A stretch of 64,000 nucleotides of DNA from Natronosalvus amylolyticus (GTDB taxonomy: Archaea; Halobacteriota; Halobacteria; Halobacteriales; Natrialbaceae): NCBI RefSeq assembly GCF_024298845.1, contig NZ_CP101157.1, positions 1 to 64,000 of the forward strand, written 5' to 3'. The number at the start of each line of letters is the position of its first letter. The stretch's first letter is position 1. Below the pieces are notes generated by a model. It was not told where the DNA came from. It saw only the letters and a list, made by a program, of their open reading frames with translations, and made no database searches. The position numbers and the translations under genes were made by a program. Shown here in pieces: positions 27,384 to 59,324 of this stretch.

Positions 27384-28104
27384 CTACGACCGTCGTCCCG
27401 ACACTGTTAGCGAGCGTCCTAAGTAGCCCGACATTGGGACTAAGACCCTCATATACTCCTGCCAAATGAGTACACAAAGACCTCCCAGAGTCCTTTGTCA
27501 TACTCCATTAGTAGTTTGGATGTTATAAAAATTCAGTGAGGCAGCAACAAACCGAGGATCTGCCATATTGACGCCATAAATCTTGTACTGGCTTACCCAC
27601 CAACTTTCGATCTATTATTTGTATGATTACCGCGAGAGCCGCTCAACAATCCTTTCACGCACTGTCCGGTGTGTTTTGAGTTCACTACGAGCTAATGCAA
27701 TGTTTGTGAGCGGGTATAACACATACGCTGGGAGATTTGGCGTCGATGGTTTTGAAGGCCGATCGTCCAGAGTTACCCCACAGAGTGAAGTCTTTGAATT
27801 CCGTGGGGTAACTCTGTTTCAAAACACACGAAAATTTGACTTTCATTATTTTCTTCTATTTTCCTGATTGGTTGGAAATCCGTCTTCTAAAACAATCAAT
27901 TTCTAGAATCATTTTAGAAATACAGAAGATATATGCTCTATCTCGACAGATCGTATTTCGACAATCAATGAGCAAATTGAGGAACCGAAAGCAAACATTC
28001 TCTCGAACAGGTTGCAGTCGATACAATCCGTTGAACAGTGGCTTCACCGCAAATCTGCACAGCGAGATGGCTCGATACAGATCTAGTAGAGGTCAGGTCT
28101 CTCA
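27384..28104. other. 720-bp intergenic boundary with inverted repeat
   Basis: No convincing gene. The stretch separates the stress island from the conjugation-like operon and is more A+T-rich than either side. It holds a strong inverted repeat at 27768-27816. A 90-codon frame ending in an ATGA overlap with the next gene has basic, Arg/Ser-rich content unlike its neighbours and is not accepted. Confidence 0.5.
27768..27816. repeat. GTTACCCCAC inverted repeat, copy 1
   Basis: A perfect 14-bp inverted repeat, CAGAGTTACCCCAC (27768-27781) and GTGGGGTAACTCTG (27803-27816), with a 21-nt spacer. Weaker copies occur at 56578 and 58334. It lies 290 bp before the first gene of the conjugation-like operon. 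Confidence 0.75.
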
Positions 28105-30254: not shown

Positions 30255-31090
30255 CAATTCAACAGACATCACTCGATAGACGCACCGTTCTTGGAAGCAT
30301 ACTCGTCGGGATCACTACTGGACTTGCTGGTTGTTCTGCGTTGAGTGATTCTGATGACGATGATTCGTCGACAAACTCCAGTGGAGACGTTCTCCAGAGC
30401 GTCGCGGTCGAGGGACTCGAGCTTGTGGTTGAACTCGAACGGGATGCGGTTGACCAACTGAACCTTATCGATCCCTCTGGCGAGTTGTTTGCCCAACAAA
30501 CGATTGAATCGGGGGTGTCCAAAACTGCGATCGAGATTGGGACCGACTATCCTGTTGGCGAATACGAACTCATTGGGCTTGCAGACGAGGAGACCGTTGA
30601 GACGACGTCGATTACGCTCGAACCGGACCTCGAGTTAACAGAACTCCGGTTGGCCAGGAATTACCCCGAGGAGATGTACGAGGGTGCGAGAGACTCCAGT
30701 ACGGAAGCAGAGGCGATACTTACTGTGACGAATCGGGGAACTGGGCCGACCGCAGCTACCGCGCTTCGGTTCGAAGGTGATGTCCCCTTCCCGTCACATG
30801 AGAGCTACGATGAGGCGGGTGAGAGTGGGATCCATGATCCGGAGAGCGACTTTGGAGCGGATGCAGAGTCAATAGCTCTACCTGCAGGAGAGACGGTACT
30901 CATCTACAGCAACACGCGCCCCTTTTCGCCAGCGGGTACACGATCAAAATGCGATTCGGTTGGACGGGACGGTCAGTTCATCGTTCGTCTCTCTACAACC
31001 CATGCCATAGATCTCACTCTTGACTACGTTATCCACTATCTTGGTACCGCTCCCGATGATTGTGAGATCGAAATTGAGGAGCTATCGTAA
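30251..31090 (+). CDS. Tat-exported lipoprotein
   Basis: 279 residues. N-terminal twin-arginine motif (SLDRRTVLGSILVG) followed by a lipobox (TTGLAGCS, Cys near residue 25) and an acidic Ser/Asp linker, as in haloarchaeal lipoproteins. The mature part is beta-rich, without known domains. It would be lipid-anchored on the outer face. It lies in the operon between the surface protein and the polytopic membrane protein, suggesting a part of the transfer machine at the cell surface. Confidence 0.8.
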   Translation: MTIQQTSLDRRTVLGSILVGITTGLAGCSALSDSDDDDSSTNSSGDVLQSVAVEGLELVVELERDAVDQLNLIDPSGELFAQQTIESGVSKTAIEIGTDYPVGEYELIGLADEETVETTSITLEPDLELTELRLARNYPEEMYEGARDSSTEAEAILTVTNRGTGPTAATALRFEGDVPFPSHESYDEAGESGIHDPESDFGADAESIALPAGETVLIYSNTRPFSPAGTRSKCDSVGRDGQFIVRLSTTHAIDLTLDYVIHYLGTAPDDCEIEIEELS

Positions 31091-32232
31091 TGTCGTGGTC
31101 ACTCTCGGATATCGGGATCAAGTGGTTCGAAGACGCAGTTGACAAACTCATCGAATGGTTTCAGGAGGGGTTGGCAGATGGATATGAGGCCGTCACGGCA
31201 CAAGTTTTCGGCACGCCAACACCGGAGACGGATGGCGCCTTCGTGTTCGGTCAGCCGTCGAACACACCGTGGGAAGAAATTCACAACAATCTCGTTGCTG
31301 GGGAGATCATGCTCGTTTCCCTGTTGTTGCTCGTGATGTGTGTCCAGGGAAGGCATACGATCCGGATCTTCAATATCGGCAGCGCGTACGAGACGCGAAA
31401 GGCAAAGCGCAGTGCCTGGACGGGTGCGTTCCTGATTGTAACGTGGTATTGGGTCGCTGTGTTAGCTCTCTATCTCGTCGACGGCTTCACCATTGCCCTC
31501 CTTCCAGATATCTCGACGGTAACAGATACTATGATCGACTTGCTCCGTTTGACCGTTTCAAACCCAGCTCTAGCTCTCTTCCTCACTGGAGTTGGAGCTG
31601 TCGCCATGTGGATCTTACAGGCGCTGTTCTTCCTTCGCGAGATTCTATTGTACATCTTGATCTATGCGATGCCTATCGGTATCGCACTGGCCTATGGGAA
31701 TCTTCCTGTCGTCTCTCACATCGCCCGCACGGTCTGTATGAAGTTCGTGCCACTCGCGATTATGCCGATCCCGGTAGCGCTATTGTTCAAAGGGTATGAA
31801 CTCCTGTTCAGTGAGGGGACAGACTCGACACTCGTTCCGGATAGTTCGTTTCTGAGTTATCTCATTGCGGTTACACTGCCGCTTCTCTCGATTCTCATCG
31901 TCTGGAAGCTGTTCAAGTATGCCAGTCCGATGACGACGAAAATCATCGGAGCGACGACGAAAGGGGCCGTGACAGCCGGTGCAGTCGTTGGTGCGGGAGC
32001 GGTCGCAGGCCCCGCTGCGGCGGCGACAGCGGCAACCTGGGGTCCGAAGGCGGCTGCAGGCTACACAGTCGCCTCGAAAGTGCGTCAGCGAGGCAACTCA
32101 CCACAGTCATCTGGCAACTCGAGCACCGCTAGCGGAGGACGAACCGACCACGATAACGTTGCGACAGATGCGTACGGCCAAGAAGGCGTCCCGGCGTACC
32201 GTCGCACCGAGAACGATCCGGGGTATTACTGA
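31090..32232 (+). CDS. Polytopic membrane protein (VirB6/TrbL-like)
   Basis: 380 residues with six or seven hydrophobic segments between about residues 75 and 310 (such as IMLVSLLLLVMC, FLIVTWYWVAVLALYLVDG and FLSYLIAVTLPLLSILIVW), an Ala/Gly-rich stretch, and a disordered tail. The tail extends past residue 330. The topology and neighbours match the inner-membrane channel proteins VirB6/TrbL of type IV secretion. Sequence motifs are not diagnostic. Confidence 0.65.
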   Translation: MSWSLSDIGIKWFEDAVDKLIEWFQEGLADGYEAVTAQVFGTPTPETDGAFVFGQPSNTPWEEIHNNLVAGEIMLVSLLLLVMCVQGRHTIRIFNIGSAYETRKAKRSAWTGAFLIVTWYWVAVLALYLVDGFTIALLPDISTVTDTMIDLLRLTVSNPALALFLTGVGAVAMWILQALFFLREILLYILIYAMPIGIALAYGNLPVVSHIARTVCMKFVPLAIMPIPVALLFKGYELLFSEGTDSTLVPDSSFLSYLIAVTLPLLSILIVWKLFKYASPMTTKIIGATTKGAVTAGAVVGAGAVAGPAAAATAATWGPKAAAGYTVASKVRQRGNSPQSSGNSSTASGGRTDHDNVATDAYGQEGVPAYRRTENDPGYY

Positions 32233-33333
32233 ATGACACGAGATCACGATGCAGCTGGCCGTCGAATCATGGATGAGCTGGGTGAAGAGAGTCGCATACC
32301 GATTCTGAACATCGAGGAGGGAGACGTCTATGTGCTCCTTGGCTTCCCGATCGCTGGCCTCCTCTTTGGTGGGCTCACGGGACTCGATGGTGCGATCTTA
32401 CCGTTCGTCTTACTCGGTGTCGTCCTTGGTGGGTCGATCGTCTACGCGTCACCCAACCACCTCCCGGCGTCGACATGGCTGGGAGACGTCTACCGCCACT
32501 ACTGCAAGCGGCCTCGGTTTACGTACAGCACGGAGGCCACAGCAGAGTCCACTGAAGCGAGTACCGAGGGCGGACTCGTGAGCTATACGCCGTTCAAACC
32601 GGACGAGCGAACACAGGACCTCACGAACATCAGGCGAGCGTGGCCTGGTGCCGGTGCAATCGAGCGCTCAGATGGCGCGATGGAAGCCTACCTCGAGATC
32701 GATCCTGGGAACATGGACTTCGCGATGTCCGGCGACTGGGCGCAGATCCAGCAGCTTGGAGAGGAGTTCGCGAACAAGGAACTCGAGTTCACGCTCAAAT
32801 TCCACGCCACGACGCGGTCGTTCCCGGTCGAGAAACTGATCGCCAGGATCGATGGGCGGCTCACTGACAGTGACGTCAAGCAGAATCCGATCTTCAAGGA
32901 GTTACTCGAGGAGTATCGCGAGCAACGTCCACGAGACCTCGAGGGAACCCAACAGGTACGGTATTTCATCGGCGTCGAAGTCGACCCTTTCGAGGTCTAC
33001 GATCGGTACCAGGACGAACAGTCGCCTGCTGAAAAACTCACCTCGTTTCCGGTGGTTGGCTTCCTGTTCAACCCGTTCGTGACCCGTCGCAACGACATGA
33101 CCGACGCGGAGATCCGGGCGGCCATGTTCGACAAACTCGAGAATCGGTGCCACGGTCTCCAGACGGAATTCATCCAGAAGGCAGCAGGGTGGTCGGCTCA
33201 TCGACTGACGACGGTCGAACTGTTCGTCCTCTCAATGGACTTTTGGAACGGCGAGGAACACGAGTACGACGACGGAGCCGATGCGATCCGTGAGCATCCA
33301 GTGATCGACCATCAACGGAGGGTCGATCAGTGA
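32233..33333 (+). CDS. VirB3/PrgI-like helices plus VirB4 N-terminal-like domain
   Basis: 366 residues. Two helices at about 33-75 (VYVLLGFPIAGLLFGG and ILPFVLLGVVLGGSIVYAS) resemble VirB3/PrgI. The soluble rest (FTLKFHATTRSFPVEKLI ... RYFIGVEVDPFEVYDR) resembles the N-terminal part of VirB4/TraC ATPases without a P-loop. It would be the membrane anchor of the ATPase encoded next. The GTG of that gene overlaps its stop. Confidence 0.7.
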   Translation: MTRDHDAAGRRIMDELGEESRIPILNIEEGDVYVLLGFPIAGLLFGGLTGLDGAILPFVLLGVVLGGSIVYASPNHLPASTWLGDVYRHYCKRPRFTYSTEATAESTEASTEGGLVSYTPFKPDERTQDLTNIRRAWPGAGAIERSDGAMEAYLEIDPGNMDFAMSGDWAQIQQLGEEFANKELEFTLKFHATTRSFPVEKLIARIDGRLTDSDVKQNPIFKELLEEYREQRPRDLEGTQQVRYFIGVEVDPFEVYDRYQDEQSPAEKLTSFPVVGFLFNPFVTRRNDMTDAEIRAAMFDKLENRCHGLQTEFIQKAAGWSAHRLTTVELFVLSMDFWNGEEHEYDDGADAIREHPVIDHQRRVDQ

Positions 33334-35468
33334 TCGACGCACTCTCCGATCCAGGGACACAAGCTGGCCTTGCCCTCTATATCGGTGCAACGGCATTGTT
33401 CACGCTTCTCGTGAAGCTGGCGTGGGACCGCTGGCGTGCCGAGGACGTCGAAGAAGTCGAACTCGCCGATCTCCTCGAGGAGACGACCATAGAAGACGGC
33501 CTCGAGGAAGGTCAGATCCTCGACGACATTGCCGAACATCATCAACACGTCGTCGCGCCGGCGGCGATCGAGTGGGACACGCGTACCGCTCACGTCGGTG
33601 ATCAGTGGACGTCCACACTCTACGTCGCGGATTATCCGGATTACCCGAAAGACGGCTATCTGACCGAACTCTTCGAGCTCACGGACGTCGAGTTCGATCT
33701 GACGATCCACATCACACCAAAGAGTCAGCAACAAGCTCGAGACGAACTCCAGCGAGTGGCTGACGACCTCCAGGCCGATGCTGACCTCGAGAGTACTGTC
33801 CGTGGGAGCTATCTCCAGGAACGAGCCAATGAGGCGCTATCGACGTACAAGAGCGTCGAGAACGGGAGCCGGGTGTTCAAGCAAGGAATGTTTATCACGG
33901 TTCGATCGGAGTCACGTGATCAGCTTCGTGACGCCGTCCGGACGGTTCGGAGCCGGCTTCGTGAACAACCCGCTGGACTCTCGCCAAAGACAGCCATCTG
34001 TAAGCAAGACCTTGCTATCCAGGCTGCAGCTCCGATCGGTTCCAATCCGTTCGGTCGAGAGGCCACAGCACTCGGTGGTGCGGTCGGTGCGTTGCTCGCG
34101 TCGCCACACAATGCCACGATTCTCGAGGACGGTGGCGTCGAGTTCGGCGTTCACTGGAAGAACCAAAGCCCGGTCGTCATCGATCCGTTCGCTCGAGAGA
34201 ACGGCTATGCGATGTTTACGATCGGTGACCCAGGATCTGGGAAATCGTTCGGCTCGAAGCAGAACTTCATCCGCTCAATCGAGCAAAGCGAGGACCGTAT
34301 CGGGATCATCCTCGAGCCACTGAACAACTGGGCCGGTGTCGCCGAAGCCCTCGGTGGCGAACGAATCACAATCGGCGGGGATATGGGGCTGAACCCGCTC
34401 GAGATCAAGCCGACTCCCGAGCGTGTCCAACGGGCAATGGGGAAGGACGCCAGCCCATACCGTGAAAAGCTCGATAGTGTGATGAGCTTCCTCTCGAACT
34501 ACTTCGCGCTTCGGGGAATCACGCTCGGTGACCGTCGCACAACGTTGGAGACCGCGATCGAACGTGCATATACGCGCAACGGAATCACCGACGATATCGC
34601 GACGCATCACAATGAGAGTCCAACGATGCGGGACGTCCTCGATATCCTCGAGGAGATGGTCGAGACGCCGACGGAGTACGTCGTACGGACTGACGAGGAA
34701 GCGACGAAAATTGGGGAAGACGCGACGTGGCTCATCGATCAACTTCGTCCGTTCGCAGAAGACGGCCGGTACGAGAATCTGGGCCGAGAGACAGAGTTCG
34801 ACATCCGCGACGAGAAGGTGATCTATCTCGACCTCGCCCAGCAGGAGGGCAGTCTCGGTGGGAGCACGAGTCTCATCATGCAGTTGCTAATTTCGCTAGT
34901 CTATGAGCGTGCGAAGGAGACGGACAAAGAGGTCGTCTTCGTCATCGACGAGGCCCGGTACATCATGCAGGATGCGGCGAGTCTCGAGTACCTCGAGATC
35001 GTCTTCCGTCATCACCGCCACCACAACCTCTCGATTCGCCTCGTCACCCAGACCGTCGACGAGTTTTTCCAGCATCCAGAGTCCGAGGCAATCATCGACC
35101 AGTGTGCGATCAAGCAGTTCCACCACCTCGACGGGATGGACCACGAGTGGGCCAACGAGTTCGGCCTCAACTCGGCACAGATGCGCTTCGTCCAGGAGGC
35201 TGTTCCCGGAAACGACCGAACCGGCTATTCGGAGGCGCTCGTCGGCGTCGACGGTGAGTGGCGCGGAATCGAAGTTCGAGCGATGGAAGACGAGACGGCA
35301 GTGATCGACTTCGATCCAAAAGCCCAGTCTCAGACTGAGTTGCCCGGCCGTTCAGCAGACACACCTACAGAGCTATCTATGAATACTAATCCAGCGACTT
35401 CACACCAAGTATCAACTCCACCACAGACTGATGGCGGTAAGCACGGAGGTGAATCGAAACATGAGTAG
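33330..35468 (+). CDS. VirB4-like type IV secretion ATPase
   Basis: 712 residues from a GTG start. One N-terminal helix, a middle domain, then a RecA-like motor with Walker A GDPGSGKS near residue 296 and Walker B VVFVIDEARYI near 535, followed by a VirB4-type arginine/glutamine segment (HHHNLSIRLVTQTVDEF). It would power assembly of, and transport through, a conjugation-like pore at the membrane. Its 3' end overlaps the next gene by 8 bp. Confidence 0.88.
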   Translation: MIDALSDPGTQAGLALYIGATALFTLLVKLAWDRWRAEDVEEVELADLLEETTIEDGLEEGQILDDIAEHHQHVVAPAAIEWDTRTAHVGDQWTSTLYVADYPDYPKDGYLTELFELTDVEFDLTIHITPKSQQQARDELQRVADDLQADADLESTVRGSYLQERANEALSTYKSVENGSRVFKQGMFITVRSESRDQLRDAVRTVRSRLREQPAGLSPKTAICKQDLAIQAAAPIGSNPFGREATALGGAVGALLASPHNATILEDGGVEFGVHWKNQSPVVIDPFARENGYAMFTIGDPGSGKSFGSKQNFIRSIEQSEDRIGIILEPLNNWAGVAEALGGERITIGGDMGLNPLEIKPTPERVQRAMGKDASPYREKLDSVMSFLSNYFALRGITLGDRRTTLETAIERAYTRNGITDDIATHHNESPTMRDVLDILEEMVETPTEYVVRTDEEATKIGEDATWLIDQLRPFAEDGRYENLGRETEFDIRDEKVIYLDLAQQEGSLGGSTSLIMQLLISLVYERAKETDKEVVFVIDEARYIMQDAASLEYLEIVFRHHRHHNLSIRLVTQTVDEFFQHPESEAIIDQCAIKQFHHLDGMDHEWANEFGLNSAQMRFVQEAVPGNDRTGYSEALVGVDGEWRGIEVRAMEDETAVIDFDPKAQSQTELPGRSADTPTELSMNTNPATSHQVSTPPQTDGGKHGGESKHE

Positions 35469-38400
35469 TAGTGAGTATTTGAAAGTGACTCCGACGTCGG
35501 GACCACTCCGTCGGTCGGATATTCCGGCAGTTCTTGAGAGCCTTCATAAACTGTCGAACCCAGCGGCAGAGAGTTTCTGGAACCGGGTGAGGCCCAGAGT
35601 GGACACAGCTCCACCAACGTTCGAATTCCTCGCCGTCTCTGCAGGTCCTGATGCTCCAGTTGAGTTCTACTACGGGGTCAACCAAGAAGAACATCTCAAC
35701 ACGCTCGAGAAGCGTCTCAGGTCGATTTACCCGACTACGTTCACGGTTATGCGAACAGAACTCGATCTTGAGGCAGTCCTCATACCTGAATCCGACTTGG
35801 CGGAGGGAGATCTCGAGTCTGAGGAACAGGGGGCATTGGATCGAGAGGATATTCGAACTGATTCGGGAGAGACTGATTTGGAAGATTCCGATGAAGGTGA
35901 CGTAGAAGACGAACCCCCGACCCCCTCTCCACTGGGGGTCGAGTGGCTCGGTAAAACTGGGCGCAAAGAAGACTGGATGACGACCATCGCGCCGTTTGTC
36001 GTCGACGAACCCGATGAAGAGTACGAATCAGAGCGACCACCGCTTTCGGCCGTTGTTGAAGTCCTCCATGAAATGACTGTCCCCACTGTTTATCAGATTC
36101 TCTGGCAGCGCAAACCTGACTGGCGGGATGATGCTGAAATCCGAAAAATGAATCTCAAGGAGGGACGCGATACCTGGGCCGAAGACCTCATCGGCTCGTG
36201 GCTCGAGCCTGTCGATGCAGATCCTGCAGATCGAGAGCTATCTCAGGAGACAAAAAACCGTATTCAGAGAATCGACAGCAAACACCCGCGTCGAACGTTC
36301 ACTGTCAATGCTCGAGCCGTTGCAATGGCTTATGACGGCGATGTTGAGATCCGCGCAGAACTCGAGCAGCTGAAGGCAGCACTCCATCCACTCGACGGTC
36401 CGTTTTACGAACTCTACGGACGCCGTATCCGAGAGAAAGGATTCCTCGATCGGCAGAAAGCCAAACGAGCTCAACGCCATCTCGAGCGCGTTCTCAACGG
36501 AGAGATGATCGCTGGTAGCGGGAAGAAGCGGCCAGATTTCGTGTTCAATGCGGACGAACTCGCAAACGTGATCGTTGTCCCGAGCGCCGAGGATTTGACT
36601 GTCGAGGGCTCTCGTGGAGCGCGTTCAGAGCAGCGCAGCCGCAATCCACTGCCACGACCGAATCCCGATTTGATGGCACAGTTCCGTGAGGGGATGGCGA
36701 TCGGATATGCACTTGATGAAAATAGTACTATCCAACCAGACCCGATACGGATTCCGCCAAATCTCTTAACAAGACACTACGGAAGGTTTGCATCGACTGG
36801 AGGCGGAAAGTCGAAAGCAATCATCAATGATGCGCTGGCTCTCAGGGAGACGACAGGTGGGCCGGTTATTATCGTTGATCCGAAAGGCGATGGAATGTGT
36901 GAGAACTATCTTCGCTGTCACTATACCCGATTCAACGGATTGGACAACACCTATCAGTTCTGTGTCCCCGAAACCCTCCCTGCTTTCTCTTTCTTCGATA
37001 TTCGTTCGACACTTGATGCGGGATGGAGGCGCGAGGATGCGATCCAAGACAAGGTCGATCACTTCCACGACATCATGCGGATGGTCATGGGTCGCAAACA
37101 GTATGAACAGGCGTTCGTCGCCAACGAGATTCTCAGCTACCTCATCAAGGCGCTCTTCGACGAGGAATACGGTAGTGACGCCTTCGGCCTCGATGATCTC
37201 TTTGCGGCTGCACTCCAGATGCAACGCGAGCGGACAGTCCCGCCTGTCGCTGCCGAGAACCAAAATGTCGAGGAGTCGCTTACGCGCCACTTCGAGAAGG
37301 ATGACCGTCAATTCCAGATCTCGATGGACGCCGTCGGGAACCGCCTCGATAAACTAAGAGAAGACGCGCACCTACGACGTATCTTCAGTCACGTTCCGGA
37401 ACAGGGCGATGATGGCGAATACATCGACAACCGATTCGATTTCCACGAGTTCCTCGACGAAGATGCCACAATCTTGTTCGACTTGGGTGATCTCCGTCCG
37501 GAGGCTCAGCGAGCAATTACACTCCTTCTGTTGAGTAACCTCTGGGATGCGGTTCGGGTGCGTCGACGTGATGGGAAGACAGACTACGAGAATCTCACCA
37601 ACCTCATCATCGAGGAGGCAGCCCCCGTCGCCTCGACGAAACTCGTTTCCGAGCAGCTGCTTCCCCAGGGTCGGTCGTTCGGCCTGAGCATGGGACTGGT
37701 GATGCAGTTCCCCGGACAGGTCAGGAATCGAAGCGAGCGTGCCTACGACGAGGTCCTCAACAACATCAAAACGAAGCTTATCGGGAACATCTCCATCGAA
37801 CGCGACCTCGCCGAGTCGCTGGCCCACGAAGACCTGAGCCCGACTGATCTCCGAAATCGGGTCAACACGCTCCCCAGCGGAGAGTGGATCGCGCAACTCC
37901 CGAGCCCGTCATTCGGGGAGACGGGTCCAGCCCCGTTCTCCGTGAAGCCGCTCCCGATAGCAGCCGGCCATCCAGAGAGCGATGAGCCACTCTCTGTCGA
38001 ACAGGAGGACCACTTCGAGACCGTAGCCCTCCCTCAACTGTCGGAGCGAACACAGACCCAGTACGGGCTTGCTGAGGGGGCAAGCGAATCAGAGGCAGCC
38101 GATAATGAAGGATGGGGAAGTAGACCGAACGATGCACGGTCGACATCCGCAGAATCGGATAGCCCTGTGGACTCGACGCAGTCGTCGTTTATCGGACAAG
38201 CAACCAGTGGTTCAGCAGCTGATGAAGAGAAAGAAGCGGACTCCACCAACTTACTGTTTGGAGATCCCGAGTCAACTGCGTCAGAAGAGCCAGCCGCTGA
38301 AGCGGAGGAGACAACTGTCGACGAGAACAGATCGTCACCAGTACAGGCTGGTGGTGTAACCGTCTCAGATGACGAGCTTCGACGGCGCGGGCTCACTCAC

Positions 38401-39078
38401 GACGACGTCCGATTCCTGACTCGCATCCTCGACGTGATGAATGGTGACTCCCCGGACTACACGCTCTTGGATTCGATGAGTGCGTTCAAGAACGACTTTG
38501 ACGACCTGGACGTGCAACGACTCGTCGATCAAGACCTGCTGGAGGAAGGACGAGCATGCGGTCGGAAGTACTACACCGTCCTTCCGGCAGGGCGTGAACT
38601 GCTCGGCCAAAAGCTCAAGGTCGGCCCTGGTCAGGGGGATATCGGTGAGAAGACGCCGCACAAGGTCGGTGTGAAGCTGCTCGAACTGTGGTTAGAAGCC
38701 CGCGACGATGTCGAGAAGGTCGAACCATACTACGAGTACGATGAGGAGACGGTGTTCGACGTTGCCGGTCTCGATGCTGACGGAGAACTCGTGTGGGTCG
38801 GTGAAGCCGAACTCGCGAGTAATAACAAACACGCTCCGGTCAACGACTACGACAAGCAGAGTCGGGTGGACGCAAACGTTGTCTGGGCGTTCAACAGACG
38901 CGAGACCGCCGTGGAGGTATTAGACCATCTCGCAGAGGCCGATCGGATAGAATACAGTGTGAGTGGCCGTGCAGCCCGATCGTTCTCCGACATTCGAGAG
39001 GCCGTTGAATCGTTCGATGCAGCTGGGCTGACGACGATTCGGAGCTTCAACAAACTCGATCAGGAGTTCAATTCATGA
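35461..39078 (+). CDS. TraG/VirD4-HerA-like coupling ATPase with C-terminal nuclease-like domain
   Basis: About 1205 residues. N-terminal 370 residues are acidic and unassigned. The motor has Walker A ASTGGGKSKAI near residue 445 and Walker B NLIIEEAAPVAS near 715. Residues about 880-960 are an acidic linker, 965-1060 look like a winged helix (DDVRFLTRILDVM ... GRKYYTVLPAG), and 1090-1125 hold FDVAGLDADGELVWVGEAELA, a D...E-x-E pattern of PD-(D/E)xK folds. It would recruit and pump DNA into the pore. The nuclease-like tail could replace the missing relaxase. Confidence 0.85.
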   Translation: MSSSEYLKVTPTSGPLRRSDIPAVLESLHKLSNPAAESFWNRVRPRVDTAPPTFEFLAVSAGPDAPVEFYYGVNQEEHLNTLEKRLRSIYPTTFTVMRTELDLEAVLIPESDLAEGDLESEEQGALDREDIRTDSGETDLEDSDEGDVEDEPPTPSPLGVEWLGKTGRKEDWMTTIAPFVVDEPDEEYESERPPLSAVVEVLHEMTVPTVYQILWQRKPDWRDDAEIRKMNLKEGRDTWAEDLIGSWLEPVDADPADRELSQETKNRIQRIDSKHPRRTFTVNARAVAMAYDGDVEIRAELEQLKAALHPLDGPFYELYGRRIREKGFLDRQKAKRAQRHLERVLNGEMIAGSGKKRPDFVFNADELANVIVVPSAEDLTVEGSRGARSEQRSRNPLPRPNPDLMAQFREGMAIGYALDENSTIQPDPIRIPPNLLTRHYGRFASTGGGKSKAIINDALALRETTGGPVIIVDPKGDGMCENYLRCHYTRFNGLDNTYQFCVPETLPAFSFFDIRSTLDAGWRREDAIQDKVDHFHDIMRMVMGRKQYEQAFVANEILSYLIKALFDEEYGSDAFGLDDLFAAALQMQRERTVPPVAAENQNVEESLTRHFEKDDRQFQISMDAVGNRLDKLREDAHLRRIFSHVPEQGDDGEYIDNRFDFHEFLDEDATILFDLGDLRPEAQRAITLLLLSNLWDAVRVRRRDGKTDYENLTNLIIEEAAPVASTKLVSEQLLPQGRSFGLSMGLVMQFPGQVRNRSERAYDEVLNNIKTKLIGNISIERDLAESLAHEDLSPTDLRNRVNTLPSGEWIAQLPSPSFGETGPAPFSVKPLPIAAGHPESDEPLSVEQEDHFETVALPQLSERTQTQYGLAEGASESEAADNEGWGSRPNDARSTSAESDSPVDSTQSSFIGQATSGSAADEEKEADSTNLLFGDPESTASEEPAAEAEETTVDENRSSPVQAGGVTVSDDELRRRGLTHDDVRFLTRILDVMNGDSPDYTLLDSMSAFKNDFDDLDVQRLVDQDLLEEGRACGRKYYTVLPAGRELLGQKLKVGPGQGDIGEKTPHKVGVKLLELWLEARDDVEKVEPYYEYDEETVFDVAGLDADGELVWVGEAELASNNKHAPVNDYDKQSRVDANVVWAFNRRETAVEVLDHLAEADRIEYSVSGRAARSFSDIREAVESFDAAGLTTIRSFNKLDQEFNS

Positions 39079-39959
39079 CGTGGCGCCAGGCGACTCGCGA
39101 AGAGATCTACAGGTACTACGCCGAGGAGTTCCCCTCGTACCGTGACGAGCTCCCGTCGTTCATCACAGCGAAGGGGCCAAAACAGTACGCGCTTGCGTTT
39201 CGAGGCCCCCACCCGGTACGGAAAGATGGAGTCCCAGACAAGGACTTCATCCGAAGAGATACGTGGCAGACGAACGTCTCAGGTGAGCGGATCACGGCGG
39301 CGTTCCACGACTTCGACGATGTCCTTGAGTTCATCCGCCATCCAGCACGAAACGATCCACTCGGTCGGAGTGACTTCGCGCTCGCAGATCCCGACTTGCT
39401 CGACACACCAGACCCGTGTCCTGATGCAGTCTACTACGCACTCGATCATTGGGAACGGCCGTGGGTGCTCCTCGTCGATATCGACGCAAAAACGATCGCC
39501 CGAGAGCGAGCAACGCAAGCAGTATCGGACGAGGATGTTTCGGAGGATAGCGAGACACTACTCGATGCTGCGGGGATTCTCGAAGCAGACCCAGCAGGCT
39601 ACCCGTATTCCTTCGAGGATATCGAACGGGCCATCGAGTACGGCTTCGAGGTGCGAGAGATCTTCGAGGACGACTTCAACGCCGAAGACACAATGGTGGT
39701 GTACAGCGGCCAGGGCGTTCACGTCTATCTCCTCGATACTGACCCCGCTCATCGGTACGACGCCAAGAGTCGAGAAGTGCTGAACGACCTTCTACAAGAC
39801 ACCTACGAGATTCCCATCGATCCAGTGGTTACCGCCGATCGTCGGAGGGTCGCCCGGCTACCCTACTCGTTGCACGCTGACGTCTGTAGTATCGTCACGC
39901 CGATTGAGAGCCCGGACTTCGACGTTCGGTCTGCGACACCGGAGGTGCTCCAGTCATGA
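39075..39959 (+). CDS. Archaeo-eukaryotic primase, PriS-like catalytic subunit
   Basis: 294 residues with all three AEP motifs: LLVDID (D135, D137), SGQGVHVYLLD (S211-H216) and IDPVVTADRRRVARLPYSLH (D249, R261, H267). These bind metal and nucleotide in DNA primase small subunits and related polymerases. It would make primers on transferred or replicating DNA. It starts inside the stop of the coupling ATPase gene (ATGA) and its stop overlaps the PriL-like gene, so priming is tied to the transfer operon. Confidence 0.88.
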   Translation: MTWRQATREEIYRYYAEEFPSYRDELPSFITAKGPKQYALAFRGPHPVRKDGVPDKDFIRRDTWQTNVSGERITAAFHDFDDVLEFIRHPARNDPLGRSDFALADPDLLDTPDPCPDAVYYALDHWERPWVLLVDIDAKTIARERATQAVSDEDVSEDSETLLDAAGILEADPAGYPYSFEDIERAIEYGFEVREIFEDDFNAEDTMVVYSGQGVHVYLLDTDPAHRYDAKSREVLNDLLQDTYEIPIDPVVTADRRRVARLPYSLHADVCSIVTPIESPDFDVRSATPEVLQS

Positions 39960-41467
39960 CTCAGTCGACGCCTGTCAAGGACGAGCGTACCGCCTATCGC
40001 GTTGCGACGCTCCCGCTGGAATACGGCACGACGCGGATAAACCAGCTGTTCACGCGGGGCTACAATCGCTACATCGTCGACGGCGAAGATCAACCAGCAG
40101 ATCTGCTGAACGACCTCGAGCGGTTCGGAACGGCGGCGTTCAAAGAAAACATCAGGACAAACGCTGCAGAGGAACCGTTCGTCGACGAACCGGGAACACT
40201 CGCCGTCCTCGCGACGTTGAGCGCGATCTGCGTCAAGGCACACCCGAAGTTCGAGCACGCTCCACCGCGAAAGGTGCAGGTTCTCTACGATATTCGAGAG
40301 TTGTACGTCAATAATCTCGCCTCCCTCCTTCGAGAGTTCGGTGATGGGAGTCTTCAACAGAATATCGCAGAGGTGCTGTACGCGAAAGCCCCCGGAGAGG
40401 ATGGTCCACACCCCGGCCGTGTTTGTACAGGAATCAAAGAAATGCCCGAGTTCGGTGGTGGGTTGTACCTCGAAATCCCGATGGCTGCGGCGTCGAGGAA
40501 TTGCCTCGTTCACGCCGACACCGAGACAGGAGAGGCCGGGGAACTGCTCACTCGCGTCAAGAACAATCGCCTCCACGTGCCAGTCGGTGATTTCGATACG
40601 AAGTATCGCGAGTACGCCAGACGTGCGTTCAAGAAGCTCCTGCGAGTCCAAGAGGAGAACCTCTCCGAAGACCAGCTCACGTGGCTGACGACAAATGAAT
40701 CAGCCATCACAGAACGCATCGATCGCTTCATCGAGACGGGACACCACGAACGAATCTGGCGAGACTGGGACCCCGGTGAGCGAACTATTCGTGTGCTACG
40801 GGAGGCAATTCGAGACGCTCCAGACGAAGTCGCCATGCTGGGAGAGTTCCACTCGGCGAAGGATCTGTTTGAAGCAGTGGAAGCGTACGATCCGGAAGCG
40901 GACTGGAAGCGGGACGTGTGTAATCGTATCTCGAGTCCACGAAGTCTCGGAAATCTCCTTGCATCCCAGCGCGACCACCGGAGCCTCACTATCCGACAGC
41001 ACGGAAATACGAACCACTATCGGATTCAGGAGTCTTCGCGAGGCGTCCAGCCACTCTCCGTCGAGTCAATCGAGGATCTGTTTGAACTTCCTTGTATGGC
41101 GAACATGGCCGAACGCCTCCGCGAAAAGAAGCCAGTCCGAAAGGATCTGTACAGCTTTGCTCGGATGGTGATGTGGCTGCCCCAGTACCAGGACAGTGAC
41201 CTCGAGACGATTGTCGCGGATCTCAAGGACATCTTCTCACGATGGCCGTGGTACGACGAACAGGTCACCGACTACCAGATTCGCTACGAGTTCTCGAATA
41301 CGATTGGTGGCGACACCCCGCTTCCGATGAACTGCGACAACGACGATATGCAGCGGTACTGCATCGGGCAGGAGCAGTGCCCATACTCCATCTGGGGAAG
41401 TCTCCCATTCCCAGACGAAATGTACGACCAACTGAATGAGGCCGAATCCACTGGAGAGGAGTTCTAG
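39956..41467 (+). CDS. PriL-like primase large subunit with Fe-S cysteines
   Basis: 503 residues. The C-terminal third has C380, C460, C469 and C475 in the order and context of the PriL [4Fe-4S] domain: ELPCMANM, then KPVRKDLYSFARMV, DYQIRYEFSN, and MNCDNDDMQRYCIGQEQCPY. The N-terminal 350 residues are helical and resemble PriL only loosely. It should pair with the PriS-like product as a replicon-borne two-subunit primase. It is the last gene of the operon. Confidence 0.8.
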   Translation: MTQSTPVKDERTAYRVATLPLEYGTTRINQLFTRGYNRYIVDGEDQPADLLNDLERFGTAAFKENIRTNAAEEPFVDEPGTLAVLATLSAICVKAHPKFEHAPPRKVQVLYDIRELYVNNLASLLREFGDGSLQQNIAEVLYAKAPGEDGPHPGRVCTGIKEMPEFGGGLYLEIPMAAASRNCLVHADTETGEAGELLTRVKNNRLHVPVGDFDTKYREYARRAFKKLLRVQEENLSEDQLTWLTTNESAITERIDRFIETGHHERIWRDWDPGERTIRVLREAIRDAPDEVAMLGEFHSAKDLFEAVEAYDPEADWKRDVCNRISSPRSLGNLLASQRDHRSLTIRQHGNTNHYRIQESSRGVQPLSVESIEDLFELPCMANMAERLREKKPVRKDLYSFARMVMWLPQYQDSDLETIVADLKDIFSRWPWYDEQVTDYQIRYEFSNTIGGDTPLPMNCDNDDMQRYCIGQEQCPYSIWGSLPFPDEMYDQLNEAESTGEEF

Positions 41468-46392: not shown

Positions 46393-46683
46393 ATGGCCAA
46401 ACCTGACCTCAACGACGACACGAGTGCCGACTACGAACAGTTCGAGGCCGAACTCCTCGCCCAAGATCAAGACGCCGTCCGCGTTGGGACGGCGGACATG
46501 GACGATTCGGAGGCCCGTAACCTGGTCAATGACCTCATCGACGCGGGCATCGTCATCCCAATCGCTGAAAAGCGCGTGCTCGTCCACGAACCCAGTAGTG
46601 AAGCGTTCGAATTGATTACCCAGCTTGCTGTCTTCCACAAAGGCTGGACGGCCGCTTGCGACACCAGCGAGGAGACGGCCTGA
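46393..46683 (+). CDS. Uncharacterised acidic protein, pair with zinc protein
   Basis: 96 residues (MAKPDLNDDTSADYEQFEAEL ...), helical, with NLVNDLIDAGIVIPIAEKRVLVHE like a small winged-helix segment. The stop overlaps the next ATG (TGATG), so the pair is co-translated. No known family. Confidence 0.6.
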   Translation: MAKPDLNDDTSADYEQFEAELLAQDQDAVRVGTADMDDSEARNLVNDLIDAGIVIPIAEKRVLVHEPSSEAFELITQLAVFHKGWTAACDTSEETA

Positions 46684-47018
46684 TGCAGCAGACACTCTCC
46701 GGGTGTGCCTTCTGTAAGGCGCTGCCCGGTGCTGACGCTGGTGAGGCACACACGTGGGGGAAAGAAGAGCAGGTCACCCACCAGATCTGTGTCGACTGTG
46801 CAATTCAGGCGCAACCCGATCCCGATGAGCGCGATCACCACGCTTGCGACGGGTGTGGACTCGTCGTTGATACGCTTGCAGCACTCACCCGGTTCCGCGT
46901 GGAACTCGGACATCTCGAGGGGCCGCTGCAGCTTTGTGTTCGCTGTAGCCCCGATGGGCCCGCCACATACTGGACGCGCGAGCTCAAGGAGCACCTCGTA
47001 GCGGCGCCAGTGGAGTAG
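46683..47018 (+). CDS. Multi-zinc-ribbon protein
   Basis: 111 residues with three cysteine pairs: CAFC (residues 8-11), CVDC near 36, CDGC near 55 and CVRC near 87, plus His. These suggest two zinc ribbons. Such small zinc proteins are abundant in haloarchaeal elements and are thought to bind nucleic acid or partners. It is translated with the previous gene. Confidence 0.7.
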   Translation: MQQTLSGCAFCKALPGADAGEAHTWGKEEQVTHQICVDCAIQAQPDPDERDHHACDGCGLVVDTLAALTRFRVELGHLEGPLQLCVRCSPDGPATYWTRELKEHLVAAPVE

Positions 47019-48612: not shown

Positions 48613-48831
48613 TTACTGATCGATCGTGATTGTGCCGCTATCTACAGTTATGTTGTATCCAAGATACTCAAACTGAATCTTACTTGATTCAGCAAGACGG
48701 TCCAGTGCATCAGGGTCAACGCTATCATATAGAGGTGGTAAGTCCAGTGAATCCTGTTCCTCTATTTCAGCCACTCTCTCTACAATTTCAATGGCTGGAC
48801 TGGGCCATGTACTCGTCGTTAGATCCCCCAT
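48613..48831 (-). CDS. HalOD1-domain protein, short form
   Basis: 72 residues with VERVAEIEEQDSLDLPPLYDSVDPDALDRL and IQFEYLGYNITVDSGTITI: the HalOD1 core in minimal form. It is an output/adaptor domain without a fused sensor. It converges with the 48323 gene. Confidence 0.75.
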   Translation of the reverse strand: MGDLTTSTWPSPAIEIVERVAEIEEQDSLDLPPLYDSVDPDALDRLAESSKIQFEYLGYNITVDSGTITIDQ

Positions 48832-49254
48832 TAGAGATTTGATTTGACGGCCCTGCTTATAATTGAATCGTGAATTAAAGTAGGTAATTATAAACCATGG
48901 TAGTTAATACCTCCCGACAAATGAATCTTCTGCACTGACCGTCGGGAGCTTCAAACCGATCGTTCGGAGGGTGCCTCTTTGACTACGAAGAAAGCCCCTG
49001 ACGCGCTCGAGTCCCGCGCCTCGCTGCGCTCCTCACACAGTTGCGGTGCTTGCGTCGTCGGGGTTCCCCGAGCAACGGAAGACGCTTCGCGACTTCCGAG
49101 CATCGCGAACGCAAACGTTCGCTCAACGCGTCAGCCCCTTTTGATCCCACCCACGTGGACCAATGAGCTGACTGTCGAAGGTGGTTGTTCCCTACTCAGA
49201 GACGGCACGTCCCGCTCGCCGCTTCTGCCCTCCACTCACTCTCGCTCTTCGGAT

Positions 49255-49318
49255 GCCAGTTTTAAGCGCGCTTTCGGTCATCGCTCGCGCTCAGACGCGA
49301 AAACGGCTTAAAACTGGC
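49255..49318. repeat. 13-bp inverted repeat, 38-nt spacer
   Basis: GCCAGTTTTAAGC and GCTTAAAACTGGC are perfect inverted copies, with the spacer holding further partly self-complementary GCG/TTTCG-type sequence. This is a candidate cruciform. Confidence 0.7.
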
Positions 49319-49370
49319 CGCTCGCTCCGATTGAAGCGCCGCGCGTTACTGGTTGGATCTGTCATCGGAG

Positions 49371-49428
49371 CGTCTCGCTCGCGCCCTGACGGGCGCTTGC
49401 GAAGGCGCGAGCGAGACGCGTGTGATGG
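49371..49428. repeat. 15-bp inverted repeat with nested hairpin
   Basis: CGTCTCGCTCGCGCC and GGCGCGAGCGAGACG are perfect inverted copies. The left arm overlaps a nested perfect hairpin (GCGCCC TGAC GGGCGC), so two alternative structures are possible. Confidence 0.7.
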
Positions 49429-49517
49429 ATGAGTTGGAGTGCGACGAGAGCCAGGGCTGGAGAGTCGTGGTGTCGGAAAGACGCCGAGTGAGCGCCTTTG
49501 GAATCCAATTAATTCCA

Positions 49518-50366
49518 ATGTCTAGTAAGAAGTCGGTTAGTAAGGTCGTTTCGGTCGATGAACAAGCGTACGAGCAGGAAGTGGGTCGAGCAGAGCACGA
49601 GGACGTCGTCGACGAGACTCCGGAGTTTCGGGCCACGGTGGAGATGGAGATTCAGGCGAAGGTCGATGCGAACCACCCAGACGGGATCGTCGACACCAGC
49701 GAGGATCGGATCTACGGTGTGACCTTGGCCCAAGAAGAACGCATTCGGGCCAGAGAGGAAGAACTCGAGCGAATCAGTGCACAGGCAGCGTTCGGTCAAC
49801 AGGAAGGACGAGCAGAGCGAACGAGAGTGGTAGTTGAACAGATGTGTCGGAATCAGCGGCCAGCCAAGGAAGTCGATCCTCGAGCGAAACTTGGACGAGC
49901 GACGTTGGGCCAGGTCAATAGACAGGCACAGCGGTTGTCAGAGAACGTCAACGGTGGGTACACAAGAGCGGTCATCGCGAAGCGGATCGCCAGTCGGGTT
50001 CTCGAGGGTGCGGACATGTTCGAGGCGGTGATGGATACGAAAGAAGAGATGCACCACGAGGCAGGGACGATCGTGCCGATCAGAAGGCTCGAGGAAATCA
50101 GACGAGGCGAGGTCACTGTGGAAGGTCGTGTACTCGAACTGTGGGAGCCCTCGAATCCGAGTATCCAGCAGGTTGGGTTGCTCGAGGACGAAACTGGTCG
50201 GACGAAGTTCACGATCTGGGCGAAGAGTCGACAAACAATGGTACAGGAGGGTGAGCGAGTGCGGTTCAGGTCGGCGGCAAAGAATTGGTACAATGGGCGG
50301 TGTTCGATCGCGCTGACTCACTGGTCGGAAATCATCTTCCCAGAGCGCGGTCGGTGGTGGGAGTAG
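49518..50366 (+). CDS. OB-fold ssDNA-binding (RPA-like) protein
   Basis: 282 residues from ATG 49518. The N-terminal half is helical and acidic; residues 195-275 look like an OB fold (RGEVTVEGRVLELWEPSNPS ... DETGRTKFTIWAK ... RVRFRSAAKNWY). RPA-type proteins bind single-stranded DNA in replication and repair. It sits beside the structured block. The longer in-frame form reaches back into the repeats and is rejected. Confidence 0.8.
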   Translation: MSSKKSVSKVVSVDEQAYEQEVGRAEHEDVVDETPEFRATVEMEIQAKVDANHPDGIVDTSEDRIYGVTLAQEERIRAREEELERISAQAAFGQQEGRAERTRVVVEQMCRNQRPAKEVDPRAKLGRATLGQVNRQAQRLSENVNGGYTRAVIAKRIASRVLEGADMFEAVMDTKEEMHHEAGTIVPIRRLEEIRRGEVTVEGRVLELWEPSNPSIQQVGLLEDETGRTKFTIWAKSRQTMVQEGERVRFRSAAKNWYNGRCSIALTHWSEIIFPERGRWWE

Positions 50367-50699
50367 CCGGACGAGCTCTTTTTTGCTGGTGCCCGATCAC
50401 CCACTACCCACCGCCCCACCCACCTCCACGTTCCGGGCTGCTCACGGCCTACGGCCGTTTCACTGCCGGGCTTTCGCAAATATGTCTAAAATCACATCAG
50501 CTGGGTTTATTGACCCTCTCAGAAGATGATAGGTGCTGACTGCTGCATAGAGAGGATGGGTGCAACACAGACACCTACTTATTCCCGCCAATTGATTCTG
50601 AACTAGCCGGAAGAGAAACGTGCGAATGTATCGCCAGATAACCTTCCAGTTGCGACAGATTTTCGTAGGGACGTGCAAGAAACACAGTGCAAATCTAGC

Positions 50700-53484: not shown

Positions 53485-53627
53485 CTTTGGTGGAGACCGT
53501 TTTCCAAGGCTGCTGATCCTTCTCTTACTCGTCTACCGTCTCGACACTGACCGCACGGTGGATTTTTTCCAGACCCGCTGATGGCCAGCGGTCTTCTCGA
53601 GTTCGACTCGAGGGACCTGAAGTGAAC

Positions 53628-54563
53628 ATGGCTACGAGCAACAGCACCCGGAAAACGTTCGACGATTCGGATATCCGGCACGACGAGATGCACAGCACGA
53701 TCGAAACGTGGCTCAAAGACCTCGTCTGCGAGGTCGACGATGCGGTCTCGAGCGACCAATTCAGAGAGTGGCTCGACGTCCAGTGTGAGTTCCACGACTA
53801 TTCCCCTCGAAACACACTATTGATCAAGCTCCAGTGTCCGCACGCAACTCGAGTTGCTGGCTACAGAACGTGGAAAAACGAGTTCGACCGATGTGTGAGC
53901 GAAGGCGAGAAGGCGATCTGGATATGGGCACCGATCATCGCGAGGAAGTGCCCCGAGTGTGGGAATTCGTCGTCCTACCACGAACGGAGTGACTGCGAAT
54001 ACGACGAAACGGAACCCGACGAGTGGAACAAGGGACTTGTCGGCTTTCGACCAGCACCAGTCTTTGACGTCTCACAGACTGAGGGAGAGCCACTCCCGGA
54101 ACTCGAGACCGAGGCAAACGGCAATGCCGACGAACTGGTGCCAACACTCCTCGAGGCAGCGGTTGTCCTTGAGGTAGAGGTTGAGGTCGTCCTCCCTCAG
54201 GAGTGGTCTCACGGCAGCGCCAAGGGCGTCTGTCAGTATCGTCTGGAGAAACAGCCACTCGTTGAAGTGCGTGATCGCGAAAACGAGGCAGATCTCGCTG
54301 TCACACTCGTTCACGAGTACGCTCACGCACTACTGCACGGTGGTCTCGATACCGAAGACCAAAGGTCGAAACGCGAACTCGAGGCTGAAGCCGTCGGGTA
54401 CATCGTCGGTCGGCACTTCGGGGTGGACACGAGTGGGTCAGCGTTTTACCTCGCCGCGTGGGAGGGGGATGAGCCGGAGGCAATTCTCGAGCGGCTTGAA
54501 CGGATCAGTTCGACTGCGCAGGAGATCATCGATGTCGTCGAGGAGGAAATGGTCGATGTGTGA
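53628..54563 (+). CDS. ArdC-like antirestriction protein with metallopeptidase motif
   Basis: 311 residues. The N-terminal half matches ArdC: YSPRNTLLIKLQ, then VAGYRTWKNEF and GEKAIWIWAPI, with an inserted CPEC zinc knuckle. The C-terminal half has HEYAHALLHG, the HExxH zinc motif of ImmA/IrrE-type proteases. ArdC proteins bind single-stranded DNA and protect incoming plasmid DNA from restriction. This fits a conjugative element. ATG 53628 is preferred to 53622. Confidence 0.82.
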   Translation: MATSNSTRKTFDDSDIRHDEMHSTIETWLKDLVCEVDDAVSSDQFREWLDVQCEFHDYSPRNTLLIKLQCPHATRVAGYRTWKNEFDRCVSEGEKAIWIWAPIIARKCPECGNSSSYHERSDCEYDETEPDEWNKGLVGFRPAPVFDVSQTEGEPLPELETEANGNADELVPTLLEAAVVLEVEVEVVLPQEWSHGSAKGVCQYRLEKQPLVEVRDRENEADLAVTLVHEYAHALLHGGLDTEDQRSKRELEAEAVGYIVGRHFGVDTSGSAFYLAAWEGDEPEAILERLERISSTAQEIIDVVEEEMVDV

Positions 54564-58377: not shown

Positions 58378-58469
58378 GCAGTGAAAGCTGGCCAACCACC
58401 TCAGCAATTCGTTGATCGGTCTTCGCCTCGAGTTTAAATAGGAGAACGCGGCCTACGAAGAGTACGACG

Positions 58470-59324
58470 ATGGATCAAAGAGAACTCGATCGCCATGAAC
58501 TTCGGCCGCTTGGAGAGGCATTTCCCGGTGTAGATCCCGTCCTTAAAGAAAAACGAGACCGCAATCTCCGCACAAGGAGGGTGAGGTATGGAAGCAGAGA
58601 AACCGAAGAGCGCGAACCGGAGTCGGACTGTCGCTCGTGTGGTGCACCAATTCCATCGGCCCAAACCAAATGCCAGTTCTGTCTGAGCAAGTATATTGAA
58701 CCGGTCGATGAAGACGCGCCACGGTCTGCTGAGGTACTCTTGGGCATAGTTTTCATCATCACAAGTGCACGGACATACTACGAGGCTGTGGCGAAAGGAG
58801 CAGCCGCCTGCCGCAAACTCGTCACTGATGAAGGACCAATCGATGGATATCAACTCGTGTACGACATCGACGATCCAGCGCCACAACTCGTCGAACCCTG
58901 GCCCTCACTGCCCTCGGCGGCAACATTCGATTCTGAACTCGGGCAACAGCTACTCGAACGACTCGCCAACGTTAGCGACGACGATTCCATCAGATGGTCA
59001 CCGGTCCATGGCAAGCCACCAATGCTCTACGATGAGTGGGGGCAATCGATCGACGACCTCGAGGACGTGCTTGAACTGGAAGAGAAAGCTCACCGTTGGT
59101 TGGTTCCGGCACTTGCACTCCACGAGCAACTGCAGTCACAAGACACTACGCAAGAAGAGCCGTGTATCCCAACCAAGAAACGACTCTTCTGCCAGCAATG
59201 CGACCAAGAGACGGTTCACGGGTTTGATAGCCGTGATTCCGTTCCTGACTCCTCTATACCCAAGACACCGATTTGGAACTGCAGCCGGTGCGAAACGCTA
59301 CGGTATGGCCCAGATCCAGAATGA
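58470..59324 (+). CDS. Zinc-ribbon protein with N- and C-terminal cysteine clusters
   Basis: 284 residues. CRSCGAPIPSAQTKCQFC lies near residues 54-71 and CQQCDQETVHGF ... CSRCE near 241-280; the middle is acidic and helical. Two zinc ribbons at either end suggest nucleic-acid or protein contacts. No family name is secure. It lies after the TFB gene. Confidence 0.65.
   Translation: MDQRELDRHELRPLGEAFPGVDPVLKEKRDRNLRTRRVRYGSRETEEREPESDCRSCGAPIPSAQTKCQFCLSKYIEPVDEDAPRSAEVLLGIVFIITSARTYYEAVAKGAAACRKLVTDEGPIDGYQLVYDIDDPAPQLVEPWPSLPSAATFDSELGQQLLERLANVSDDDSIRWSPVHGKPPMLYDEWGQSIDDLEDVLELEEKAHRWLVPALALHEQLQSQDTTQEEPCIPTKKRLFCQQCDQETVHGFDSRDSVPDSSIPKTPIWNCSRCETLRYGPDPE

Follow-up and report, generated by a model that had tools for sequence, protein, structure and literature searches.

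Organization of the locus

The window analyzed here, a stretch of 64,000 nucleotides, is part of contig C2 (72.5 kb), which belongs to a haloarchaeal genome of 4.2 Mb. It contains a 1.49-kb unit (positions 48990-50477, with GAAAGCCC at its start and GGGCTTTCGC at its end) that consists of an ~530-bp hairpin-rich noncoding block, a gene for an RPA-like OB-fold protein, and an ~110-bp 3' block (Table 1). The plus strand carries, in this order, the genes for VirB6, a VirB4-like ATPase, a HerA-type ATPase, a primase-like protein, and a primase-associated protein, followed by the DUF7558 gene, the unit itself, and an ArdC-like gene. The HerA-type ATPase is a candidate DNA translocase of the type IV secretion system (T4SS). 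Just 5' of the unit, on the minus strand (48613-48831), there is a HalOD1-domain gene; the Haloplanus GDY1 plasmid likewise has a gene of this type ahead of its unit. Farther downstream, positions 58419-59321 match the NCBIfam entry MBSP1, "biosurfactant protein 1" (E=5e-97).

Table 1. Features of the conserved unit and its neighborhood (positions within the window)
Feature	Position	Strand	Remarks
VirB6/TrbL-like T4SS gene	31087..32229	+	PF19590, E=7e-226; 17-18 kb upstream of the unit, same strand
VirB4-like T4SS ATPase gene	33330..35465	+	NF045971, E=7e-40, below cut-off
HerA-type ATPase gene	35431..39075	+	PF01935, E=1e-5; NF053655, E=1e-3 (weak CedD match)
PriS-like primase gene and primase-associated protein gene	39012..41464	+	PF01896, TIGR00335; NF038197, E=4e-255
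DUF7558 gene	46656-47018	+	Members of the family accompany the unit at 34 loci and invariably share its strand
8-bp inverted repeat	48911-48918/48941-48948		Perfect arms
5' noncoding block	48990..49517	+	Sharp edge GAAAGCCCC; reaches the start codon
13-bp inverted repeat	49255-49267/49306-49318 (span 49255..49318)		GCCAGTTTTAAGC/GCTTAAAACTGGC, perfect arms
16-bp inverted repeat, main hairpin H1	49370-49385/49404-49419 (span 49370..49419)		Perfect 16-bp arms, loop ends GAA; competing inner hairpin GCGCCC/GGGCGC
Hairpin H2	49451..49470		CCAGGGCT/AGTCGTGG here, ACCGCGATG/CATCGCGGT in most relatives; covarying
Hairpin H3	49477..49499		AAAGACGC/GCGCCTTT here, GGCGC-GTGA-GCGCC in most relatives
Hairpin H4	49500..49516		GGAAT/ATTCC; ends two bases before ATG
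RPA-like OB-fold gene	49518..50366	+	282 aa; start ATG at 49518
T-run TTTTTT	50379..50384	+	Just 3' of the stop codon
3' conserved block	50367..50477	+	Hairpin ACGGCC/GGCCGT (50444-50458); edge GGGCTTTCGC
ArdC-like anti-restriction/ssDNA-binding gene	53622..54563	+	PF08401, E=1.4e-4; PF06114, E=1e-4; downstream of the unit

A first-pass annotation of this DNA had reported, between positions 48911 and 49428, a cluster of three perfect inverted repeats with arms of 8, 13, and 15 bp, one of them with a nested hairpin, next to a gene for an ssDNA-binding protein. All three repeats are indeed present in noncoding DNA and exceed the chance expectation: this region contains 4 perfect repeats with arms of at least 8 bp, compared with 0.7 expected from dinucleotide shuffles, and an arm of at least 13 bp was seen in none of 300 such shuffles. 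The third repeat, however, has arms of 16 rather than 15 bp, and no other of its kind in the window is as long. The inner hairpin, GCGCCC-TGAC-GGGCGC, exists but is not nested; it competes with the 16-bp stem because some bases are common to both. Only the 13- and 16-bp repeats are inside the conserved unit, whereas the 8-bp one falls outside it. A further perfect inverted repeat, with 14-bp arms, is found at positions 27768-27816, just 5' of the T4SS gene block.

The adjoining gene is of the RPA-like OB-fold (ssDNA-binding) type. Its product matches NF005553 with an E value of 4e-20, which is below that family's cut-off, and its structural model includes a disordered N-terminus, a helical part, and a confident OB-fold at about residues 188-273. 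In the AlphaFold model, residues 1 to 68 are weakly modeled, and the C-terminal part alone was used. The best Foldseek matches are archaeal OB domains and the AROD-OB region of Pyrococcus abyssi Rpa1 (8aa9), with which both the helical part and the OB domain are aligned; unlike P. abyssi Rpa1, the protein described here combines a single OB domain with a long disordered N-terminus and is plasmid-borne. Profile and structure comparisons thus point to an RPA-like OB-fold, ssDNA-binding protein.

Phyletic distribution of the unit

The unit is present three times in this genome, on C2, C1 (3.5 Mb), and C4 (99 kb). Between the C2 and C1 copies, identity is 95% over 484 bp in the noncoding block and 87% in the gene, so that constraint on the noncoding part is here no weaker than that on the gene; between C2 and C4, the order is reversed, with 80% identity for the noncoding block and 89% for the gene. 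A partial copy of the OB gene (88% identity over 253 bp; G000:C1:2397588-2397845) is located ~2.5 kb from the full C1 unit, within a longer open frame.

In PLSDB, the OB protein is found on 200 plasmid records and the DNA match on 161, and both lists name haloarchaea. The exact core of H1 occurs at 75 places in 116 Halobacteriales genomes, 68 of which are upstream of an OB gene and in the same direction. A covariance model, built on the last ~157 positions and searched in 116 Halobacteriales genomes, produced 112 full-length matches: 101 before an OB gene (two of these broken), 9 before a gene for transcription factor B (TFB, TFIIB-like), and 2 that are truncated or doubtful. Conversely, the element is carried by 98 to 99 of the 103 OB genes. 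One of the two broken cases has foreign sequence between the element and the gene, and the other is frameshifted; at locus L230 (G036:C2, 270000-273500), H4 is split, between the element and a downstream remnant of the OB gene, by foreign DNA that is probably an insertion sequence. There is usually one element per plasmid, with several on one contig in G015:C7. By these sequence comparisons, the cassette is class-wide on haloarchaeal plasmids, across Halobacteriales, and the block singled out by its repeats is conserved throughout the class. We found no description of the cassette, or of an archaeal ssDNA promoter, in the papers searched, and an Rfam gathering scan returned no family match for the element. 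A viral origin was considered and rejected: the hairpin is absent from viral contigs, and the protein has no match in phages.

The nine elements that lack an OB gene sit 95 to 102 nt before a TFB gene, in the same frame. The TFB versions that were checked retain H2 to H4 and the CAATG start context, and in 8 of the 9, the TFB gene has a 3' block of the same kind behind it. The ORF is thus interchangeable within a fixed noncoding frame.

The edges of the unit are well defined. In about 50 loci, an equally sharp 5' edge is kept at positions -467 to -781 from the ATG, and the upstream flanks beyond it are mostly unrelated. The T-run after the stop codon, which has a terminator-like appearance for archaea, is present in most relatives. 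Two types of 3' block can be distinguished. The sharp edges, the mostly unrelated sequences 5' of them, three copies in one genome, and a swapped ORF could be taken to mean that the noncoding blocks are the ends of a non-autonomous transposon carrying either OB or TFB. However, the unit includes no transposase, no target duplication was seen by eye in the flanks, most plasmids have a single copy, several copies have their 3' flank in common, and the strand agrees with that of the T4SS genes (see below), which leaves such a mobile gene cassette very improbable.

Structure and covariation of the hairpins

Among the 68 exact-core loci, the distance from H1 to the start of the OB gene is nearly fixed, ranging from 94 to 160 bp with a median of 102 bp. 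The sequence of H1 varies by lineage, with long complementary arms being kept (e.g., GCGCGCTCTCGCTCGCGCC, GCGCGCCGCTCGCGCC, and CCGCGCCGCGCC, each with its complement), and the arms of H4 differ in nearly every clade yet remain complementary. The 13-bp repeat forms the base stem of a peripheral domain; in other clades, its place is taken by unrelated sequences that are often still complementary, such as GCCAGCGGGTAAGC/CTTACTCCGCTGGC. Nine base pairs show changes on both sides, and none of 500 shuffles reaches the observed pairing; the stems of the element thus contain compensatory base changes, as expected of a structured cis-regulatory RNA. Most relatives have a GTGA loop in H3, and many H4 loops contain a GGTGA-like sequence near the ATG. 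Structure prediction for the two strands as ssDNA indicates that both fold far better than shuffles (z scores of -4.2 and -4.3), with equal folding energies of the whole region on the two strands. At two loci, L044 (Natrinema gari contig_85, ~5680-5900) and L088 (~5670-5890), a segment of ~100 bp that contains the main hairpin occurs as a tandem duplication 5' of the OB gene.

Linkage to type IV secretion genes and the origin readings

A VirB6/TrbL gene (PF19590) is found within 60 kb of 54 of the 93 OB genes and is on the same strand in 51 of these 54 cases; in 40 of these 51 it is upstream of the OB gene, mostly by 12 to 23 kb. For the other 39 OB genes, VirB6 was not found within this 60-kb distance, in part perhaps because their contigs are short. 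In G081:C1, which has VirB6 without a nearby OB gene, a TFB version of the unit lies 16-17 kb away. The order of T4SS, primase, and unit is the same in pJ7-1 and in the Haloplanus GDY1 plasmid as it is here. Around 80 loci, conserved neighboring genes for TFB, DUF7558, ArdC-like, and HNH-type proteins are on the unit's strand, and for the first three of these families this holds for all members found; the second ArdC-like copy of this genome is near the C4 unit. Beside its T4SS, pJ7-1 (L123/L124) encodes a type B DNA polymerase, a primase, exonuclease VII subunits, and a BREX-5 system. No relaxase was recognized, and MOB-suite types all plasmid records with a match as non-mobilizable.

The first-pass annotation regarded the repeats as the strongest candidate in the window for an origin of replication or transfer. 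A plasmid replication origin would be consistent with hairpins beside an ssDNA-binding gene on plasmids and with the GC skew minimum of this plasmid, which coincides with the unit. That minimum, however, includes a local dip made by the unit's own composition, and in C4, pJ7-1, and the Haloplanus plasmid the skew extremes are away from the unit, so that a skew switch at the unit is seen in only 1 of 4 plasmids. Moreover, orc1/cdc6 is found in every plasmid tested, 18 kb from the unit here and 30-50 kb from it in most others; haloarchaeal plasmid origins of the Orc1/Cdc6 type are on the same plasmids but elsewhere, beside the orc1/cdc6 genes. The block is also GC-rich, not AT-rich. We have rejected the replication origin, whose probability we consider negligible.

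The proposal of an origin of transfer fared better in part. The unit usually occurs once per plasmid, in a fixed orientation and at a typical distance from the T4SS genes, as would be expected of an oriT whose hairpins are bound and nicked by a putative relaxase with the OB-fold protein as an accessory factor; the conserved 3' block behind the gene would also fit. OB-fold proteins encoded by a conjugative element are known from ICESt3, where OrfL and OrfM are part of the relaxosome (PMC12614216). Those proteins, however, assist a known relaxase, whereas the protein of the unit is RPA-like and comes with a cis hairpin block and no recognized relaxase. The near-fixed ATG spacing, the abutment of H4 on the ATG, the use of the element before TFB, and the several elements on one contig would all be unexpected for an oriT. 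The link to the T4SS is supported, but the spacing and the use before two genes argue for expression control rather than a nick site; we regard the oriT as improbable. Each of these three readings, including the mobile cassette, is less likely than the two considered below, folded ssDNA and an mRNA leader.

Possible mechanisms of expression control

Near-fixed spacing, hairpins that abut the ATG, and two alternative genes argue for control of expression, and the 5' block probably controls that of the framed gene. A gene for an ssDNA-binding protein or TFB on a T4SS plasmid that also encodes primase-like and ArdC-like proteins would fit early expression on entry. We envisage that the paired structured noncoding blocks frame a single gene, usually for the RPA-like ssDNA-binding protein and sometimes for TFB, that would be needed on entering or settling in a new cell, and that the 5' block would fold as a single strand after transfer and so allow the framed gene to be expressed early.

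A precedent for this scheme is known from the leading regions of plasmids, where Frpo-like hairpins immediately precede ssb genes (PMC11541004, PMC9849209). As in Frpo/ssi of F, ColIb-P9, and their relatives, a noncoding hairpin block is located directly 5' of the gene for an ssDNA-binding protein, with an anti-restriction gene nearby, the genes on one strand, and a linked conjugation system (PMC11541004, PMC9849209). The unit shares with these systems the predicted ssDNA stem-loops in noncoding DNA 5' of an ssb-type gene, on an apparently conjugative element with same-strand genes. It differs from them in being archaeal and GC-rich, in framing TFB as well, and in having a conserved 3' block; transcription from ssDNA is predicted here by analogy. 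F has two Frpo copies, whereas the unit usually occurs once per plasmid. The -10/-35 boxes of Frpo/ssi have no counterpart, as there is no sigma-70-like site in the element, and inspection of the hairpins by eye revealed no conserved archaeal TATA/BRE box. Sigma-70 boxes are not expected in archaea. Control through folded ssDNA after transfer, in the manner of Frpo/ssi upstream of ssb, is a reading that we prefer with some reserve, falling short of an even chance.

The serious rival to the ssDNA reading is a structured mRNA leader, in which H1 to H4 would regulate translation or stability of the OB or TFB mRNA, perhaps with the OB protein as an autoregulator. The ATG spacing, the contact of H4 with the start codon, the covariation, and the H3 and H4 loop sequences are all consistent with such a leader, as are the G-U pairs of H2: when counted on an alignment that had not been adjusted to the structure, H2 has 36 G-U versus 1 A-C on the sense strand, an RNA-like pattern. 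A purely DNA-level structure, derived from our first count of G-U and A-C pairs, was withdrawn after this recount, and given the G-U excess in H2 we make no claim for an action at the DNA level. On the other hand, H1 and H4 are almost purely Watson-Crick, and neutral scoring gives 14 G-U versus 29 A-C, unlike haloarchaeal SRP and RNase P RNAs, which under the same treatment have 8-10% G-U and about 1% A-C. Overall, consensus folding of the unit is no better on the sense strand and shows no consistent sense bias, whereas SRP RNA folds better on the sense strand (-136 versus -76), as does, less strongly, RNase P RNA. The 3' block located beyond the terminator-like T-run and the lack of an Rfam match also count against the mRNA leader, which we view as possible but rather unlikely.

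Implications for haloarchaeal plasmid transfer

We place at about even the chance that the unit serves haloarchaeal conjugative (T4SS) plasmids as a cis-acting control cassette. Its support at the sequence level is the fixed frame with a swapped gene, the near-constant ATG spacing, the covarying stems, and the linkage to and shared strand with T4SS genes. More tentatively still than folded-ssDNA control as such, we suggest that it might be an ssDNA-operated cassette that arose independently of Frpo and makes an RPA-like protein or TFB at entry.

How haloarchaeal plasmids pass from cell to cell, and whether in single- or double-stranded form, is to our knowledge unsettled, and ssDNA transfer in haloarchaea is unproven because no relaxase has been recognized on these plasmids. 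The cassette offers a defined, cloneable handle on this question and marks candidate conjugative elements in genomes. Should the proposed reading be true, the cassette would represent a convergent equivalent of the control system found in bacterial leading regions, and its operation on ssDNA would imply single-stranded DNA transfer in haloarchaea.
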